45,101 nucleotides of DNA from positions 1-45,101 of the forward strand of contig JAKSTR010000014.1 of NCBI GenBank assembly GCA_024402495.1, read 5' to 3'. The position numbers and the translations under genes are program-made. The notes below the pieces were generated by a model. That model was not told where the DNA came from. It searched no databases and saw nothing but the letters and a program-made list of their open reading frames with translations. The DNA is from Treponemataceae bacterium (GTDB lineage Bacteria > Spirochaetota > Spirochaetia > Treponematales > Treponemataceae). Below are positions 1 through 42,973 of this stretch, piece by piece; position 1 is the first letter of the stretch, and each line of letters starts with the position of its first letter.

Positions 1-2334
1 TTAATATTCCGGTATTTTAAAAATTGAACCGCGGATGCGCTTTACAAGATTTGCCTTGCTGACCGAATATGTTTTTTCTTCGTTGGTGGGGGCAATGCGC
101 AGATGAATTATTGCATCTCCGTTTGCTTTTTCAATATTCAGCGGCTCGCCCACGATAGGCTGAACCATGCCGTCGTACAAAAGTTCAATCAGGCTTCCGC
201 TGCTTATTGCGTGTTCAATCACGTGTACCTTGCCCGAATAATCCATTCCGCTGGCTTCAACCCGTTCAAACCGCACCGATTCGGCGCGCAGCTGGCTTGG
301 GTTTACCACGATTTTGCGTTTTACGCGCAGGGCAAGCCCGTCTTTTTGTTCTGCGGAAAAATCTGAATTTTCAATTGCTTCTAAAAAACCCTGCAAAACT
401 TCGTCGCGTTCTTCTTTTGTGCAAACAGCCTGAACTTGATTCGTGCCGCTGCCGCCGGGTTCTGCCTTTTTTTCAATTGGGCTTGGCGCATAAGGCGCAT
501 AAATTGAATTAGCCTCGTGCGCCCGATTTGAAGAAAGCGAATTCCGCATCGGTCTTGCACTTTCTGCCGGCTGGTTTTGGGCTTTTGGCGAAAGCCTTGC
601 AAAACTTTTGCCCGGCGTATCGCTGTTAACGGTTTTAATCGCTCCAACAAAATCCAGACCGCTTTCGCCGATAATTTTTTTCGCTTCTTCGTCGTCAAAA
701 AAATCCAGCAGATAAATGCCGTCGCCCAAAACCGCGTTAATATACGGCTTAAGTTTTTCGTTGTTTTCAATGAAAACTTTTTTTTCGCTTGCTGCTTTTA
801 AAACGTAGCCGCGGTACAAAAAGGCGCTGCTGTAATTTTCAAACCACTGGTTCAGGCTAAAATCAAGGCTCTGGCTTATTTTGTGGCTGGCGCAGTCTTC
901 AATTTGGGTTTTTATGGTTGCGGCGTTAAAACCGCTGTCAAAGGCGCGGCTGCAACTTTTTTTGCTGATTTCAAAATGCGGAACGGCGTCGTAATTTTCA
1001 ATTTTCAAAAAGCGCATTAAAGGTAAAAGCTGCGCCAGGCTCGGCGTATTCAAAATGCACGCCGAAAAATCTGCGTCAATTGTTAAAGCCGGTTTTGCGC
1101 TTTGCAGGCTTGCGCCTTGTACAAAATTGCCCGCACCTCCAAAACCGGCAGCGCCGGAATTGCAGAACGATTTTTTGTAATTTTCTGCCAGCGGCGAACA
1201 GACCCACGCGCCGTTTTCTTCTATTAAAAGACCGCTTTTTGTAAGCTGTTCTACAATTCTGGCTGCGCTAATTTCACTTTCAGTTGAAGAAGTGATGCCG
1301 CTCGTATTTTTAGCCGGTTCCTGCAAAAGTTCTGCAAGGCGGCTTTTTTTAAGGACTACATCGCCGTCTTCCTGTGCGTTTTCGCGGTTTAAAACCACGC
1401 TGCGGTTCAGTACGCGTCTGGAAAAACCTTCGTCCGGGATTTGCATCAGAATTGTCATTATAAGCTGGGCATTGCGCTGCAAAACCGCCGGACTGCACGC
1501 GCCGCAGCTTGCTGCAACCACGTAGCAAATCTGGCTGAAGTCGTCCAGCCGGCAGAAATTTTCCCAGCGCAAAAGCCTGCACGAAATTTCCGTCAAATTC
1601 TGCCTTATAAGCTGCAAATTTTTTAAGCCTTCAAATAAAAGCATGAAAAACGCAAAGCCTTCTTTTGTGGCGGTAAAACTGAAAGTGCTGTTCAAAAGGG
1701 TGGTGCAGCGTTTTTTAAAAGTACCGTCTGCCTTGCAAAGGTCGTCTTCGTGGAAAAAAAACGAAAAAATTGATGCCAGAAGCATTGACGTGGGCTGGGG
1801 CAGAATATTTTGAGCCTGCCGGAATGGTTCAGGGCTGTTGGGGCTGGTGTTTTCGCTGGCGGCGGATTTTTTGGCATTTTCTTCTGCAAAATTTGGCAAA
1901 AGGGCTGAAAAACTTAAAAAAGGCTCTAAATGGGCTTTCAGCTGGGGCGTAATTGCAAAAAAACTTTTGCGGTTTTCAATTTTTCTGTAAATCAAAAGCC
2001 GTTCTTCAAGGTTCAAAAGCCGCTCGTAAAGGTCTGCAAACGTAAAATCTGCCATAAAAAAATGCGAAAGTTTTTCCTGCGTTGGCTTTGCCAGATATTT
2101 TACCGCGCTTAAAATCAGAATGTCGTTTGGCGAAAGCAGTTTTAAAATATTCTGCACGTTTTCGCCCTTGCGCAAAAAGGCGCTTAATTCTTCCAGAAGT
2201 TTCTGCTTGTTGTATGGCGTTTTTATTTCGCCCAGATACATTCGTATAAGCTCAAAAAAATGGTTGTCGTTCATCAGCGTAAGCGATTCGCGCCAGGCTA
2301 TAATTTCTTGAACTTGCTGGTTGTTTCTTTCCAT
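1..2334 (-). CDS. Helicase-associated protein, XPB partner (PF13625-like)
   Basis: A 777-residue protein whose stop codon is the first three bases of the window, so it is complete. The ATG is preceded by AAGGA, and the gene starts 15 bp after the XPB helicase stop, so the two are an operon. The N-terminal ~130 residues are helical and leucine-rich. The middle contains low-complexity Ser/Ala/Pro linkers. The last ~110 residues (ending in a segment reading LLYDGMVQPIVGEPL and a basic KANLVKRIRGS stretch) resemble the C-terminal part of the 'helicase C-terminal / XPB-Ssl2 N-terminal' family that accompanies bacterial XPB. I see no Walker motifs or catalytic residues. By analogy with archaeal XPB-Bax1 it may assist the helicase in DNA repair, which is inference. 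The family assignment comes from general resemblance and context. Confidence 0.6.
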   Translation of the reverse strand: MERNNQQVQEIIAWRESLTLMNDNHFFELIRMYLGEIKTPYNKQKLLEELSAFLRKGENVQNILKLLSPNDILILSAVKYLAKPTQEKLSHFFMADFTFADLYERLLNLEERLLIYRKIENRKSFFAITPQLKAHLEPFLSFSALLPNFAEENAKKSAASENTSPNSPEPFRQAQNILPQPTSMLLASIFSFFFHEDDLCKADGTFKKRCTTLLNSTFSFTATKEGFAFFMLLFEGLKNLQLIRQNLTEISCRLLRWENFCRLDDFSQICYVVAASCGACSPAVLQRNAQLIMTILMQIPDEGFSRRVLNRSVVLNRENAQEDGDVVLKKSRLAELLQEPAKNTSGITSSTESEISAARIVEQLTKSGLLIEENGAWVCSPLAENYKKSFCNSGAAGFGGAGNFVQGASLQSAKPALTIDADFSACILNTPSLAQLLPLMRFLKIENYDAVPHFEISKKSCSRAFDSGFNAATIKTQIEDCASHKISQSLDFSLNQWFENYSSAFLYRGYVLKAASEKKVFIENNEKLKPYINAVLGDGIYLLDFFDDEEAKKIIGESGLDFVGAIKTVNSDTPGKSFARLSPKAQNQPAESARPMRNSLSSNRAHEANSIYAPYAPSPIEKKAEPGGSGTNQVQAVCTKEERDEVLQGFLEAIENSDFSAEQKDGLALRVKRKIVVNPSQLRAESVRFERVEASGMDYSGKVHVIEHAISSGSLIELLYDGMVQPIVGEPLNIEKANGDAIIHLRIAPTNEEKTYSVSKANLVKRIRGSIFKIPEY

Positions 2335-2349
2335 GTTTTCCTTTTAAGC

Positions 2350-4149
2350 TTAGTTTTCTTCCAGAATATCCGTTTTTAGCTGTTCGTCGTCGGTATATTT
2401 TAAAATGCGGTAGTCGTAGCCTTGTTCTGCAAGAAATTTCTGGCGGTGGCTTCCAAATTCTTCTTCAACGGTGTTTGCCGTAATCAGGGTAAAAAAGCGT
2501 GCCTTGCGCTGTTTGGGGCGTAAAATGCGTCCCAGCCGCTGGGCTTCTTCCTGTCGGCTGCCGAAAGTACCGGAAATTTGTATGGCAATCGAAGCATCCG
2601 GCAAGTCGATGGCGAAGTTTGCAACTTTGCTTACAACGATTACGCGGTTTTCGCCGCTTTTAAAGGCTGCGTAAATGCGGTCGCGTTCGGCGTTGGGTGT
2701 TTTGCCGGTAATGAGTGGCACGTTAAGGTCTTTTGCAATTTTTTCCAGCTGCTCAATGTACTGCCCGATTATTAAAATTTTGTCTTCCGGGAATATCGAA
2801 CAGATTGTTTTTGCAATCGGCAGTTTGTCGGCGTTGTCGCTGGCTATTTTGTGTTTTTGCCGCTGGTTTGCAACGGCGTATTCTATTTCCTTGTTTTCCG
2901 GCAAATTTATGCGAAGCTCCACGCATTCCGCTTCTGCAATCCAGCCGGAACATTCCAGTTCTTTCCATGGTACATCGAAGCGTTTTGGCCCTACCAGGCT
3001 GAAAACGTGACCTTCGCAGCCGTCTTCGCGTACCAGGGTTGCGGTTAAGCCAACCCGGCGGACGGTTTGCAGTTCGGCGGTAATTCTAAAAACCGGCGCC
3101 GGCAAAAGGTGAACTTCGTCGTAAATTATCAGACCCCAGGCTCTTTCCCGGAATATTTTGAAATGCGGATAATTGTCTTCCTGTCCGGCGCGCCATGTTA
3201 AAACCTGATATGTTGCTACGGTAACAGGTTTTATAATTTTCTGTTCGCCGGTATATTCGCCAATCTGTTCCGGCAAAAGGCTGGTTTTATCCAGAAGTTC
3301 TGCAATCCACTGGTGCACCGCGGAAATATTTGTTGTAACAATCAGGGTACTGGTCTGCAAAAGGCTCATTATCTGCATTCCCACTATGGTTTTGCCTGCG
3401 CCGCAGGGCAGCACTATTGTACCGAATCCTGTACCCGGTCCTTTGTCGCCAACCAGTGCGGCGGCGGCATTTTTCTGATAATCGCGCACGGCAAATTCTT
3501 TTCCGCTCTGGCACATGGTTCGCAATTCAAATTCCAGTTTTTCGCCGTCTTTCAGCGGTACTTCGTCTTTTACAGGCCAGCCAAGCTGCAAAAGCTTCTG
3601 CTTTACAGTTCCGCGGTCAATAAGGCGAACCCAAAAAGTATTTTTAAAGGCTTTGTTTACAAAAAGCAAATCCGTAAGCTGTTTTGCGGCGGCAAGTTCC
3701 TTAAAAATTGCTTCGCTGGCGCATTCCAGACACAGATAATCTGCAAAATCGTCGTTCTGTTTATTTGATGCCGCTTCCTGAGCAGTTGCGGCGCTTTCAT
3801 TATTTTCTTCTGCCGGCAAAATCTGGTAAAGGCGCAGTTTGCCGAATTTGCCGCAGGTATCTTTAATCCAGAAACTTACGGCTTGCGGCACCGGAAATCG
3901 CGAAAAACTGTTCAGTACATTCAGCGCATCGTCGCCGGTAAAGCCAGCGCTTGCGGCGTTCCAAAGCGAAAGGGGCGTAATGCGGTAAGTGTGCAAATGT
4001 TCCGGCGAACGTTCAAGTTCCGCAAATGGAATAAGGGCGTTGCGGCAGTCTTCGGCTAAGGGCGCGTGTACGTCCAGCAAAAGGGTGCGGTCACTTTGAA
4101 CGATAAGTGGATTAAAAGGGTTTGGCTGGGCAGAAGTTTGATTTTGCAT
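2350..4149 (-). CDS. XPB/ERCC3-type DNA repair helicase
   Basis: Superfamily 2 DNA helicase of 599 residues. An N-terminal ~200-residue domain precedes the motor, as in bacterial XPB. Helicase motifs are all present: Walker A CGAGKT (about 249-254), DEVH box (344-347), TAT motif III (369-371) followed by the XPB-specific RED triplet (374-376), and motif VI QRLGRILRPK near residue 540. XPB enzymes unwind or remodel DNA during repair. The bacterial role is less defined than in eukaryotic TFIIH. First gene of a two-gene operon with the 777-residue partner. A TATAAT-like -10 lies about 20 bp upstream of the ATG (minus strand), with no convincing -35 and no strong ribosome site, so the leader may be very short. 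Length and motif order are normal for the family. Confidence 0.92.
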   Translation of the reverse strand: MQNQTSAQPNPFNPLIVQSDRTLLLDVHAPLAEDCRNALIPFAELERSPEHLHTYRITPLSLWNAASAGFTGDDALNVLNSFSRFPVPQAVSFWIKDTCGKFGKLRLYQILPAEENNESAATAQEAASNKQNDDFADYLCLECASEAIFKELAAAKQLTDLLFVNKAFKNTFWVRLIDRGTVKQKLLQLGWPVKDEVPLKDGEKLEFELRTMCQSGKEFAVRDYQKNAAAALVGDKGPGTGFGTIVLPCGAGKTIVGMQIMSLLQTSTLIVTTNISAVHQWIAELLDKTSLLPEQIGEYTGEQKIIKPVTVATYQVLTWRAGQEDNYPHFKIFRERAWGLIIYDEVHLLPAPVFRITAELQTVRRVGLTATLVREDGCEGHVFSLVGPKRFDVPWKELECSGWIAEAECVELRINLPENKEIEYAVANQRQKHKIASDNADKLPIAKTICSIFPEDKILIIGQYIEQLEKIAKDLNVPLITGKTPNAERDRIYAAFKSGENRVIVVSKVANFAIDLPDASIAIQISGTFGSRQEEAQRLGRILRPKQRKARFFTLITANTVEEEFGSHRQKFLAEQGYDYRILKYTDDEQLKTDILEEN

Positions 4150-4771
4150 AACAGATTATTTTATCGAATTATAGTTGAAATGTCATCGCAAAAATTATTG
4201 ATTACAGAAAAATTATTATGGAAGAAAATCCGGTAAATACGGTGTGGCGGTTTTAAAACAAAAAGCAGCAGTTCTGCACGCCGGTTTTTATCGCGGCAAT
4301 CTAAATGCTGCCTTTTTCTGGTAAAAATCAATTTTTATACAGCGAATTTACTAAAATATTTAATTACCGAAAATGCCGTACTTCAAATATTCGTCATTCC
4401 GAATTTATTTCGGAATCCGAAGCTTTTGCTATTTTCTTTTTCTCTAACCATTGTTTGGTATAGGCAAAAGCCCCCAGTTTTGCCGGTGGCAAAACTGCGC
4501 CTATTTTTATAAAAGCTTGAGTTTGCTTTTTTGTTAACATATCAGATGCTGAATCGAGTTCAGCATGACAAAAGCTGTGCGCAGCCGCCGCAGGCTAACG
4601 AGTTCAGCATGATTTGCTTTTGCTGTTTGCTTTGTTTCTAACTATTGCTTTGAGCAGGCAAAAGCCCACAGTTTTTGTCTGCTCAAAAAACTGGGACTAT
4701 TTTTACAGAAGTTTCATTTGATAAAAACGATTTTTATTTGTCAATTTCTAAAAACTCGGTATTCGGGCTGA
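4150..4771. repeat. Intergenic cluster of dispersed palindromic repeats
   Basis: No gene is visible here. The stretch carries modules that recur elsewhere in the window. There is an ATTCCGAA...TTCGGAAT palindrome (4396-4416) and an ATGCTGAA...TTCAGCAT palindrome (4546-4566), plus a half-site TTCAGCATGA near 4603. Two ~70-bp elements starting TTTCTAAC (about 4441-4507 and 4636-4707) each contain a hairpin built on CAGTTTT...AAAACTG. The same modules occur at 35525-35705 and partly in the 216-bp tandem repeat at 9034-9580. Confidence 0.75.
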
Positions 4772-8921: not shown

Positions 8922-9033
8922 CAATTTGTAAGCCGCCGCCGCTTATTTTGGTACAAAATTAACAGAAAAATATTAGCGCCCTTTGTTCCAAACAAAAACG
9001 CCGAACGCCCGAATATCAGATTGCTAAATTCAA

Positions 9034-9580
9034 GACAGGAAAATATTTTTAAATACTGCGAATGCCGGGCTTTAAGAAATTGGCAACCAAAAGTTGCCTT
9101 TATGAAATGCAATTCTATTTTGCCATGCTGAATTTTGTTCAGCATCTGATTTGTTGCCAAAAGAAGATTCCGAAACGGGTTCGGAATGACGCGTGTTCAT
9201 TCTGGGATGGCAAAGCTTTAAAATCCGACATTTGACCTGCTGATTTTACGACAGGGAAAATATTTTAGATACTGCGAATGCCGGGCTTTAAGAAATTGGC
9301 AACCAAAAATTGCTTTTATGAAATGCAACTTCATTTTGTCATGCTGAATTTAGTTCAGCATCTGATTTGTTGCCAAAAGAAGATTCCGAAACGGGTTCGG
9401 AATGACGCGTGTTCATTCTGGGATGGCAAAGCTTTAAAATCCGACATTTGACCTGCTGATTTTACGACAGGGAAAATATTTTAGATACTGCGAATGCCGG
9501 GCTTTAAGAAATTGGCAACCAAAAATTGCTTTTATGAAATGCAACTTCATTTTGTCATGCTGAAATTAGTTCATCATCCG
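9034..9580. repeat. 216-bp direct tandem repeat, about 2.5 copies
   Basis: Unit starts at 9034, 9250 and 9466 (shared GACAGG(G)AAAATATTT), with an exact 216-bp period. Copies 2 and 3 are nearly identical, while copy 1 has several changes. The third copy breaks off inside the ATGCTGAA palindrome near 9565. Each full unit contains two palindromes also found elsewhere in the window: ATGCTGAA...TTCAGCAT (9125-9145, 9341-9361) and ATTCCGAA...TTCGGAAT (9167-9187, 9383-9403). No gene is seen in 8922-9656. Confidence 0.92.
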
Positions 9581-35485: not shown

Positions 35486-35837
35486 GGTTCTGTTGAAAAA
35501 TAGAAATTTTCGCATATCCAGCCTGAATGCCGTGCTTTTAAAGTATTGTCATTCCGAACTAGTTTCGGAATCCGATTTTGGGTAACAAATCAGATGCTGA
35601 ACTAAATTCAGCATGACGTGCTTTTGCTGTTTGCTTTGTTTCTAACCATATCTTGGTGTACGCAAAAGCCCCCAGTTTTTGCTTTGCAAAAAACTGGGAC
35701 TATTTAAGGAAGTTCAGCATGACGGAATGTTGTGCGCTGATACTGAAGTTTTTAACTCGAACCGCGTGCGATAAAAAAAACGGCGGCGCGGCAATCGTTA
35801 TTTTACGGTGCGGAACAGGCGCGGCTGGTAAACTGTG
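35486..35837. repeat. Dispersed palindromic repeat copy
   Basis: No gene. It has the same modules as 4150-4771 in the same order: GAATGCCG head (about 35525), ATTCCGAA...TTCGGAAT (35551-35571), ATGCTGAA...TTCAGCAT (35594-35614), the TTTCTAACC element with a CCCAGTTTTTGC/GCAAAAAACTGGG hairpin (about 35638-35705), and a final half-site TTCAGCATGACG near 35711. Confidence 0.8.
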
Positions 35838-39574: not shown

Positions 39575-39616
39575 AACGCTTTAGCATATAAAATTTTCGC
39601 CTTTCGCTCAACATCT

Positions 39617-39803
39617 TGTGCTGCTTGAATTGTCTGTAACCGGCATTTGATGTAAGCACAAGGCATAGTTTTGCTTTGTCAAAACTATGGTGGTTGTCTG
39701 CAATTGCCTGTGCTACTTGAATTGTCTGTAACTGGCATTTGATGTAGGCACAAGGCATAGTTTTTGCTTTGGCAAAACTACGGTGGTTGTCTGCAATTGC
39801 CTG
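39617..39803. repeat. 92-bp tandem repeat, two copies
   Basis: Copies begin GTGCTGCTTGAATTGTCTG (39619) and GTGCTACTTGAATTGTCTG (39711), 92 bp apart. They differ at a few positions, and the second has one inserted T. Each holds a hairpin CATAGTTTTGCTTTG-CAAAACTATG-like (about 39664-39690 and 39756-39783) between the conserved blocks TGTCTGTAAC and GGTGGTTGTCTGCAATTGCC. Confidence 0.85.
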
Positions 39804-42691: not shown

Positions 42692-42868
42692 AAAATCGGG
42701 CATCGGCAAACTTTGATCCTTAAGTGCACCCCTAAAGCTGGCTGAATGAAGTTCACTTTTAGGCGGTGCTTTTTTTACCGTGAATGCCGAGTTATAAAGT
42801 TTTGTCATCTCGAAAACTGCGCTTTTGCTGCTTGCGGCGAGGTCGTTGATTCTGGTGGTTTAAAAAAG

Positions 42869-42900
42869 AAAAAGCACAAAGTTTTTGGCTTTGTGCTTTT
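42869..42900 (-). terminator. Terminator of the tRNA-Cys gene
   Basis: Arms AAAAGCACAAAG (42870-42881) and CTTTGTGCTTTT (42889-42900). On the minus strand the stem is followed by TTTTTCTTTTTT. Confidence 0.85.
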
Positions 42901-42901
42901 A

Positions 42902-42973
42902 AGGCGTCGAGCAGATTCGAACTGCTGCATGACGGTTTTGCAGACCGGTCCCTTACCACTTGGGTACGACGCC
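42902..42973 (-). tRNA. tRNA-Cys (anticodon GCA)
   Basis: The minus strand folds as a cloverleaf. The acceptor stem is GGCGTCG/CGACGCC, and the three-bp D stem is CCC/GGG with AAGTGGTAA loop. The anticodon stem is CCGGT/ACCGT (one end mismatch) around CTGCAAA, anticodon at 42939-42941. The T arm is AGCAG-TTCGAAT-CTGCT. The discriminator base is U, as in tRNA-Cys. CCA is not encoded. Confidence 0.95.

Follow-up and report, generated by a model that had tools for sequence, protein, structure and literature searches.

The repeats between genes analysed here probably form a mosaic of CGTC-tagged REPs and a REP-like selfish DNA element that is non-autonomous and is recognised as folded DNA. The element is a two-hairpin unit of about 78 nt, made of a stem A of about 8 bp around a loop of about 34 nt, with hairpin B behind it. 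Copy number, architecture and compensatory changes were observed directly: the stems covary, and the loop and hairpin architecture is kept while the letters change. From these repeats we infer recognition at the DNA level, mobility and an enzyme. The unit constitutes a separate REP-like family, present singly, in arrays or, in relatives, in convergent pairs, and the two palindromes accompanying it, P1 and P2, are assigned to the CGTC-tagged REP heterodimers, a kind already described.

Modules of the window and their order

The window (the whole stretch of 45,101 nucleotides that was analysed, contig C46) belongs to a 2.97-Mb draft genome of 202 contigs, referred to as the own genome (G000). 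Its features are listed in Table 1.

Table 1. Repeat modules located in the window, with the basis of each call.
Feature	Position	Strand	Basis or remark
Head (T module), degenerate, AAATGCCGTAC...	4371..4384	+	Read from sequence; missed by 2-mismatch T scan
P1, CGTC-type REP palindrome GTCATTCCGAA..TTCGGAATC	4393..4417	+	Sequence and pattern scan
Two-hairpin unit, copy 1 (stem A, loop, hairpin B)	4422..4499	+	R1 covariance model, 75 bits; DNA fold z -5.8
P2, inverted CGTC-type REP palindrome	4545..4569	+	Sequence and pattern scan
Two-hairpin unit, copy 2	4616..4695	+	R1, 64 bits; in isolation another long hairpin preferred
T module, inverted, at end of cluster	4751..4764	-	T pattern scan
216-bp direct repeats, third truncated	9022..9578	+	Each with head T and inverted P2
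Head T in 216-bp repeats	9060, 9276, 9492
Inverted P2 in 216-bp repeats	9122, 9338, 9554
Inverted P1 in 216-bp repeats	9166, 9382		First two repeats only
Head (T module)	35525..35538	+	Sequence and T pattern scan
P1, TCATTCCGAA palindrome	35548..35572	+	Pattern scan and fold
P2, GATGCTGAA palindrome	35593..35617	+	Pattern scan and fold
Two-hairpin unit, TTTCTAACC/CCCAGTTTTTGC element	35620..35698	+	R1, 87.4 bits; DNA fold z -4.4
Divergent two-hairpin unit, tandem copy 1, stem A CTTGTGC/GCACAAG	39615..39689	+	R1, 65.8 bits
Divergent two-hairpin unit, tandem copy 2	39706..39782	+	R1, 58.5 bits
Decayed cluster: head T, P remnant (GTCATCTCGAA), two-hairpin-unit remnant (GCTTTTGCTGCTTGC)	42782..42870	+	E 0.54 only

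The loci listed in the initial annotation of this DNA are real, but the two tandem divergent units at 39615-39782 had been overlooked; R1 gave five strong matches in the window. Partial copies do lie in the 216-bp repeats, as had been described (three heads, three inverted P2, the last of them degenerate, and two inverted P1), and the degenerate copy reported near 42780 was recovered as a head with degenerate P and unit remnants, decayed too far for a good model score. A tRNA on the minus strand (42902-42973) directly adjoins this decayed cluster. Two helicase-domain ORFs at 1-4149, the second with an XPB/Rad25-type C-terminal domain, adjoin the first repeat cluster.

The same modules were said to recur in fixed order at the clusters beginning near 4371 and 35525. 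The modules occur at both, but the order differs: the cluster at 4371-4764 runs degenerate head, P1, unit, P2, a longer-loop P2 remnant and unit, with a second, inverted head at its far end. Genome-wide, P1 is followed by P2 or the unit and P2 by the unit, a rule that is not strict. In the 211 kb of own-genome loci fetched for matches (96 units after removal of overlaps; these are not genome totals), P1 preceded P2 35 times at a distance of 20-22 nt and preceded the unit 28 times with a median gap of 5, P2 preceded the unit 15 times with a median gap of 3, and only 3 P and unit neighbours stood in opposite orientation. The proposal of a REP/MITE-like modular family holds, and the modules are clearly not single-copy outside the window, genome-wide searches giving about 100 copies. 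A search of the own genome with 35525-35715 returned 97 matching BLAST pieces, and R1 matched 96 places at E<=1e-4 and 135 at E<=1.

Both palindromes of the earlier module list are present, but P1 and P2 turned out to be a single type in opposite orientation, with a GTC tag, an 8-bp stem beginning with AT and a 5-nt loop. A CGTC/TGTC tag stands at the hairpin foot (CGTCATTCC at 4392, TGTCATTCC at 35547), the stems (ATTCCGAA-5 nt-TTCGGAAT and ATGCTGAA-5 nt-TTCAGCAT) fall within 8-9 bp starting with AT around a loop of 4-5 nt, and the 35 P1-P2 pairs are heterodimers. The P pattern occurred at 117 forward and 111 reverse places of the own genome (228; reversed-pattern control 0) and in 40 of 118 family genomes, with 0 in the reversed controls among the matches listed. 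CGTC-tagged REPs, as the main text of PMC3733652 (Di Nocera et al. 2013) presents them, are a superfamily with a YGTC tag, an 8-bp stem starting with AT and a 5-nt loop, often arranged as heterodimers, said to have no dedicated transposase and found in Spirochaetes among other phyla; the word Treponema is absent from that main text. Since P1 and P2 have this published form and the pattern is found genome-wide, they are new members of the known kind, which they resemble in tag, stem, loop, heterodimers with a structured spacer and the lack of a dedicated transposase. Their unpaired tails, CCGA or CTGA, were compared with the CCA-type tail of CGTC REPs. The two-hairpin unit, in contrast, lacks the tag-stem-loop form described there, and its length is roughly threefold. 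In the Neisseria dRS3 mosaics (cited in PMC3733652), CGTC REPs alternate with repeats of other families between genes; the mosaics studied here are alike in combining CGTC REPs with other intergenic repeats, but the partner is a structured two-hairpin family.

Structure of the two-hairpin unit and its covarying stems

The third module had been listed correctly, but not the much larger family to which it belongs, in which the structure is conserved and the stem letters vary freely. BLAST in the own genome had already shown divergent copies whose stem letters differ. The R1 covariance model was seeded from 15 own copies picked for complementary arms. Own copies were read at 99 of these 135 R1 places, reaching an E of about 1e-3, and one antisense overlap was excluded. 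Alignment A2 comprised 93 hits at 65 loci, A3 31 hand-picked copies and A4 130 hits, or 122 after removal of overlaps for the gene-orientation and T-run counts.

Among the 93 aligned own matches 90.6% of cells were paired, with two-sided change in 15 of 17 pairs and in 232 cells (shuffled mean 63.5), and in relatives, whose letters differ widely from those of the own copies, 95.3% were paired, with two-sided change in 17 of 20 pairs and in 405 cells (99.5 when shuffled); these counts are inflated, because the R1 seed was selected on pairing and covariance models reward pairing. Slid and shuffled controls were far lower in both sets. With a loop-only profile at E<1, its loops taken from the same copies as the R1 set, the arms of 57 of 80 matches were at least 7/8 complementary, as against 5.6% at random places. 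G-T pairs occupied 73 of 3852 cells (1.9%), and A-C pairs (53) were about as rare in the summed counts. RNA helices usually carry more G-T wobbles.

Within the loop, a double RTCT motif spaced by 14-24 nt was present in 20 of 88 own loops (shuffled mean 2.8) and in 38 of 122 loops of relatives (shuffled mean 1.1), and no extra pairing beyond that of shuffles was detected in six genomes (mean z -0.60 to 0.09). Folding of six two-hairpin units as single-stranded DNA gave z values of -2.5 to -6.6, the copy at 4616-4695 preferring another fold, and a convergent pair in G005 folded into five hairpins (z -8.7). Unusually fast stem turnover was considered and rejected, as stems change in step with loops, with one striking exception: in two adjacent units at L045 (G000:C173) the loops differ at 1 of 35 sites and three stem A pairs are changed on both sides. 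A short T run comes after hairpin B in the main own subfamily and is missing from many copies of relatives. In some divergent own copies GGTAGAA-like letters after hairpin B, seen by eye and uncounted, were set beside GTAG/GGAG tags. The motif GGGGAAGGGAAACCCC...GCGG stands directly before stem A in one subfamily (G005, G006, G007; L308, L199, L338, L346), again by eye.

Distribution among relatives

R1 matched in 7 of 8 genus genomes at E<=1e-4, and R2 in all 8. The R2 survey scored the best 19 candidates per genus genome and the best 16 per genome in the phylum, so that copy counts are lower bounds: at least 19 in five genomes (the own included), 17 in G006, and one each in G002 and G004, both single and unconvincing. 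Head-to-tail tandem arrays with a period of about 86-102 bp were found in the window (39615-39782) and at L032, L041, L136 and L152, and convergent pairs with a gap of at most 60 nt, comparable to BIME-like dimers, at nine loci of relatives (L182, L188, L309, L308, L189, L314, L346, L344, L193); we regard such arrays and pairs as typical of REP-like elements.

Convincing copies outside the genus were found in few genomes. A second genus, g4, gave weak matches in ten genomes; on reading, nine loci kept the architecture (L207, L209, L210, L213, L214, L216, L217, L221, L224), and the matches at L208, L211, L215, L367, L371 and L372, short or odd, were not counted as convincing. Across the phylum 8 of 296 genomes matched at E<=1e-3. 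Among these, G288 (L366/L373) alone lies outside the family, and its two hits were set aside as terminator-like by eye, with hairpin B only. As a control, 80 loci totalling 810 kb (two Treponema, the rest from other groups) gave nothing better than E 0.08.

Proposed mode of spread and competing explanations

In the favoured reading, the unit would be a selfish element, non-autonomous and recognised when its single-stranded DNA is folded, on the lagging-strand template or in a cruciform. A putative structure-specific enzyme would tolerate any stem A with the proper shape and read the loop and hairpin B; copies would settle between genes, often beside REP tails, and some clusters may be bounded by inward-facing T modules. 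Several points tell against this reading: neither a transposition event nor an empty site was observed, template switching at inverted repeats could by itself keep the stem arms complementary with no recognition involved, the double motif in its simple form is present in only 20/88 and 38/122 loops, and no enzyme or recurrent neighbour gene family was found. A recurrent partner gene was rejected, the 422 ORFs beside units yielding only two small clusters, by eye a chemotaxis receptor and a response regulator. Short inverted repeats are a known substrate for template-switch correction, and the arms are such repeats; nevertheless, it is improbable that the units are neutral relics whose arms template switching keeps complementary and whose copies recombination has spread, no dedicated recognition being involved, as this leaves the constant order of A then B and the loop motifs across species unexplained. 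A bolder account, which we hold to be possible though rather unlikely, is a new class of mobile DNA addressed by structure and spread by an enzyme that processes single-stranded DNA and is unrelated to Y1 transposases; with fold and loop motifs as the address, the stem would be free to drift through compensatory changes, both inside a species and from one species to another. Covarying stems also offer a natural record of the letters to which a recognising factor would be indifferent. CGTC REPs were described in PMC3733652 as having no dedicated transposase, and a repeat family that joins them at near-fixed spacing and keeps its fold under changing letters provides a tractable case for studying the spread of REPs of this kind.

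The initial annotation had also pointed to hairpins in RNA, a suggestion that found no support. A role at the RNA level, with transcribed units serving as terminators, mRNA stabilisers or binding sites for proteins, is unlikely: the hairpins are stable and a T run follows hairpin B in the main own subfamily, but that run is missing from many copies of relatives, G-T pairs are scarce, and orientation to genes showed no bias. Units had the same sense as both tandem neighbour genes in 16 cases and the opposite in 13, of 51, in the own genome, and in 26 and 23, of 93, in relatives, counted on simple ORF calls with ORF-overlapping units omitted (16/92 own, 17/122 relatives). Rfam recognised only a tRNA in the window and gave no match near the gathering score in 7 loci, and a known structured RNA family was thus rejected. 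At the ends of clusters the GAATGCCG head, or T module, mostly faces inward, as a terminal inverted repeat would. Terminal inverted repeats, a target site duplication and a parent transposase are the hallmarks of MITEs. As T faced inward in 26 of 29 adjacencies to other modules (summed by hand), a carrier bounded by terminal inverted repeats can be considered, in which T would form the ends of a DDE-type element that carries P and the unit as cargo. The T pattern also exceeded its reversed control (75+72 against 26+25 matches). Such a MITE is nonetheless quite unlikely: T is absent next to most copies of P and of the unit (32 T against 96 units, 80 P1 and 47 P2, in loci chosen chiefly for their units and P palindromes), no T-bounded element of 1-2 kb stood out by eye among the matches listed, and the likeness to MITEs ends at the inward-facing T modules, no parent transposon having been found here.

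No transposase was seen beside the repeats, in agreement with the first description. The REP-associated tyrosine transposase for which that description had suggested a search did not emerge: PF01797 (Y1_Tnp) matched one gene in each of 2 of the 8 genus genomes and none in the other six. The own genome's single such gene (L110, G000:C186:8801-9157) is IS200-type by eye, with a 12-bp perfect hairpin downstream. Copy number, intergenic location and convergent dimers are REP-like, yet it is very improbable that these are classical REPs moved by a RAYT, and mobilisation by RAYT was rejected, because G003 and G005, 97% and 95% complete and with at least 19 scored copies each, have no Y1_Tnp; a RAYT is evidently not needed. 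GTAG REPs, BIMEs and RAYTs (PMC2817692) are similar in high copy number, intergenic location and dimers of opposite orientation; they differ from the present family, which has no Y1 transposase in copy-rich genomes and consists of a stem, a large loop and a stem followed by a second hairpin. The least probable account is that of integron attC sites, which likewise fold as single strands and vary in their arms. Integrons with attC sites are reported from treponemes (PMC3607928), and an integrase above the curated cut-off was found in 2 of 8 genus genomes (L374, G005:C28; L375, G007:C95). A further integrase match, in G004, lies in two pieces and looks broken. However, neither the own genome nor G003 has an integrase above cut-off, R2 had no match at E<=1 in the stretches fetched around the two integrases, tandem units leave no space for an ORF between them, and the RYYYAAC and GTTRRRY core boxes occurred together in 0 of 92 own units and 0 of 127 units of relatives (GTT/AAC in the arms: 1 of 92 and 84 of 127). 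The attC reading was rejected on the boxes and on the distribution of integrases; unlike the attC sites of Treponema (PMC3607928), the units have no core boxes and no cassettes and do not need an integrase.

A literature search at the level of titles and abstracts did not find the two-hairpin unit, although such listings alone cannot prove absence in print. No usable empty site was found at the helicase or amylase neighbourhoods, the helicase neighbourhood not being syntenic in relatives. The own genome is probably that of a treponeme, since the closest named protein relatives of one of its amylases were from Treponema MAGs (63% and 58% identity).
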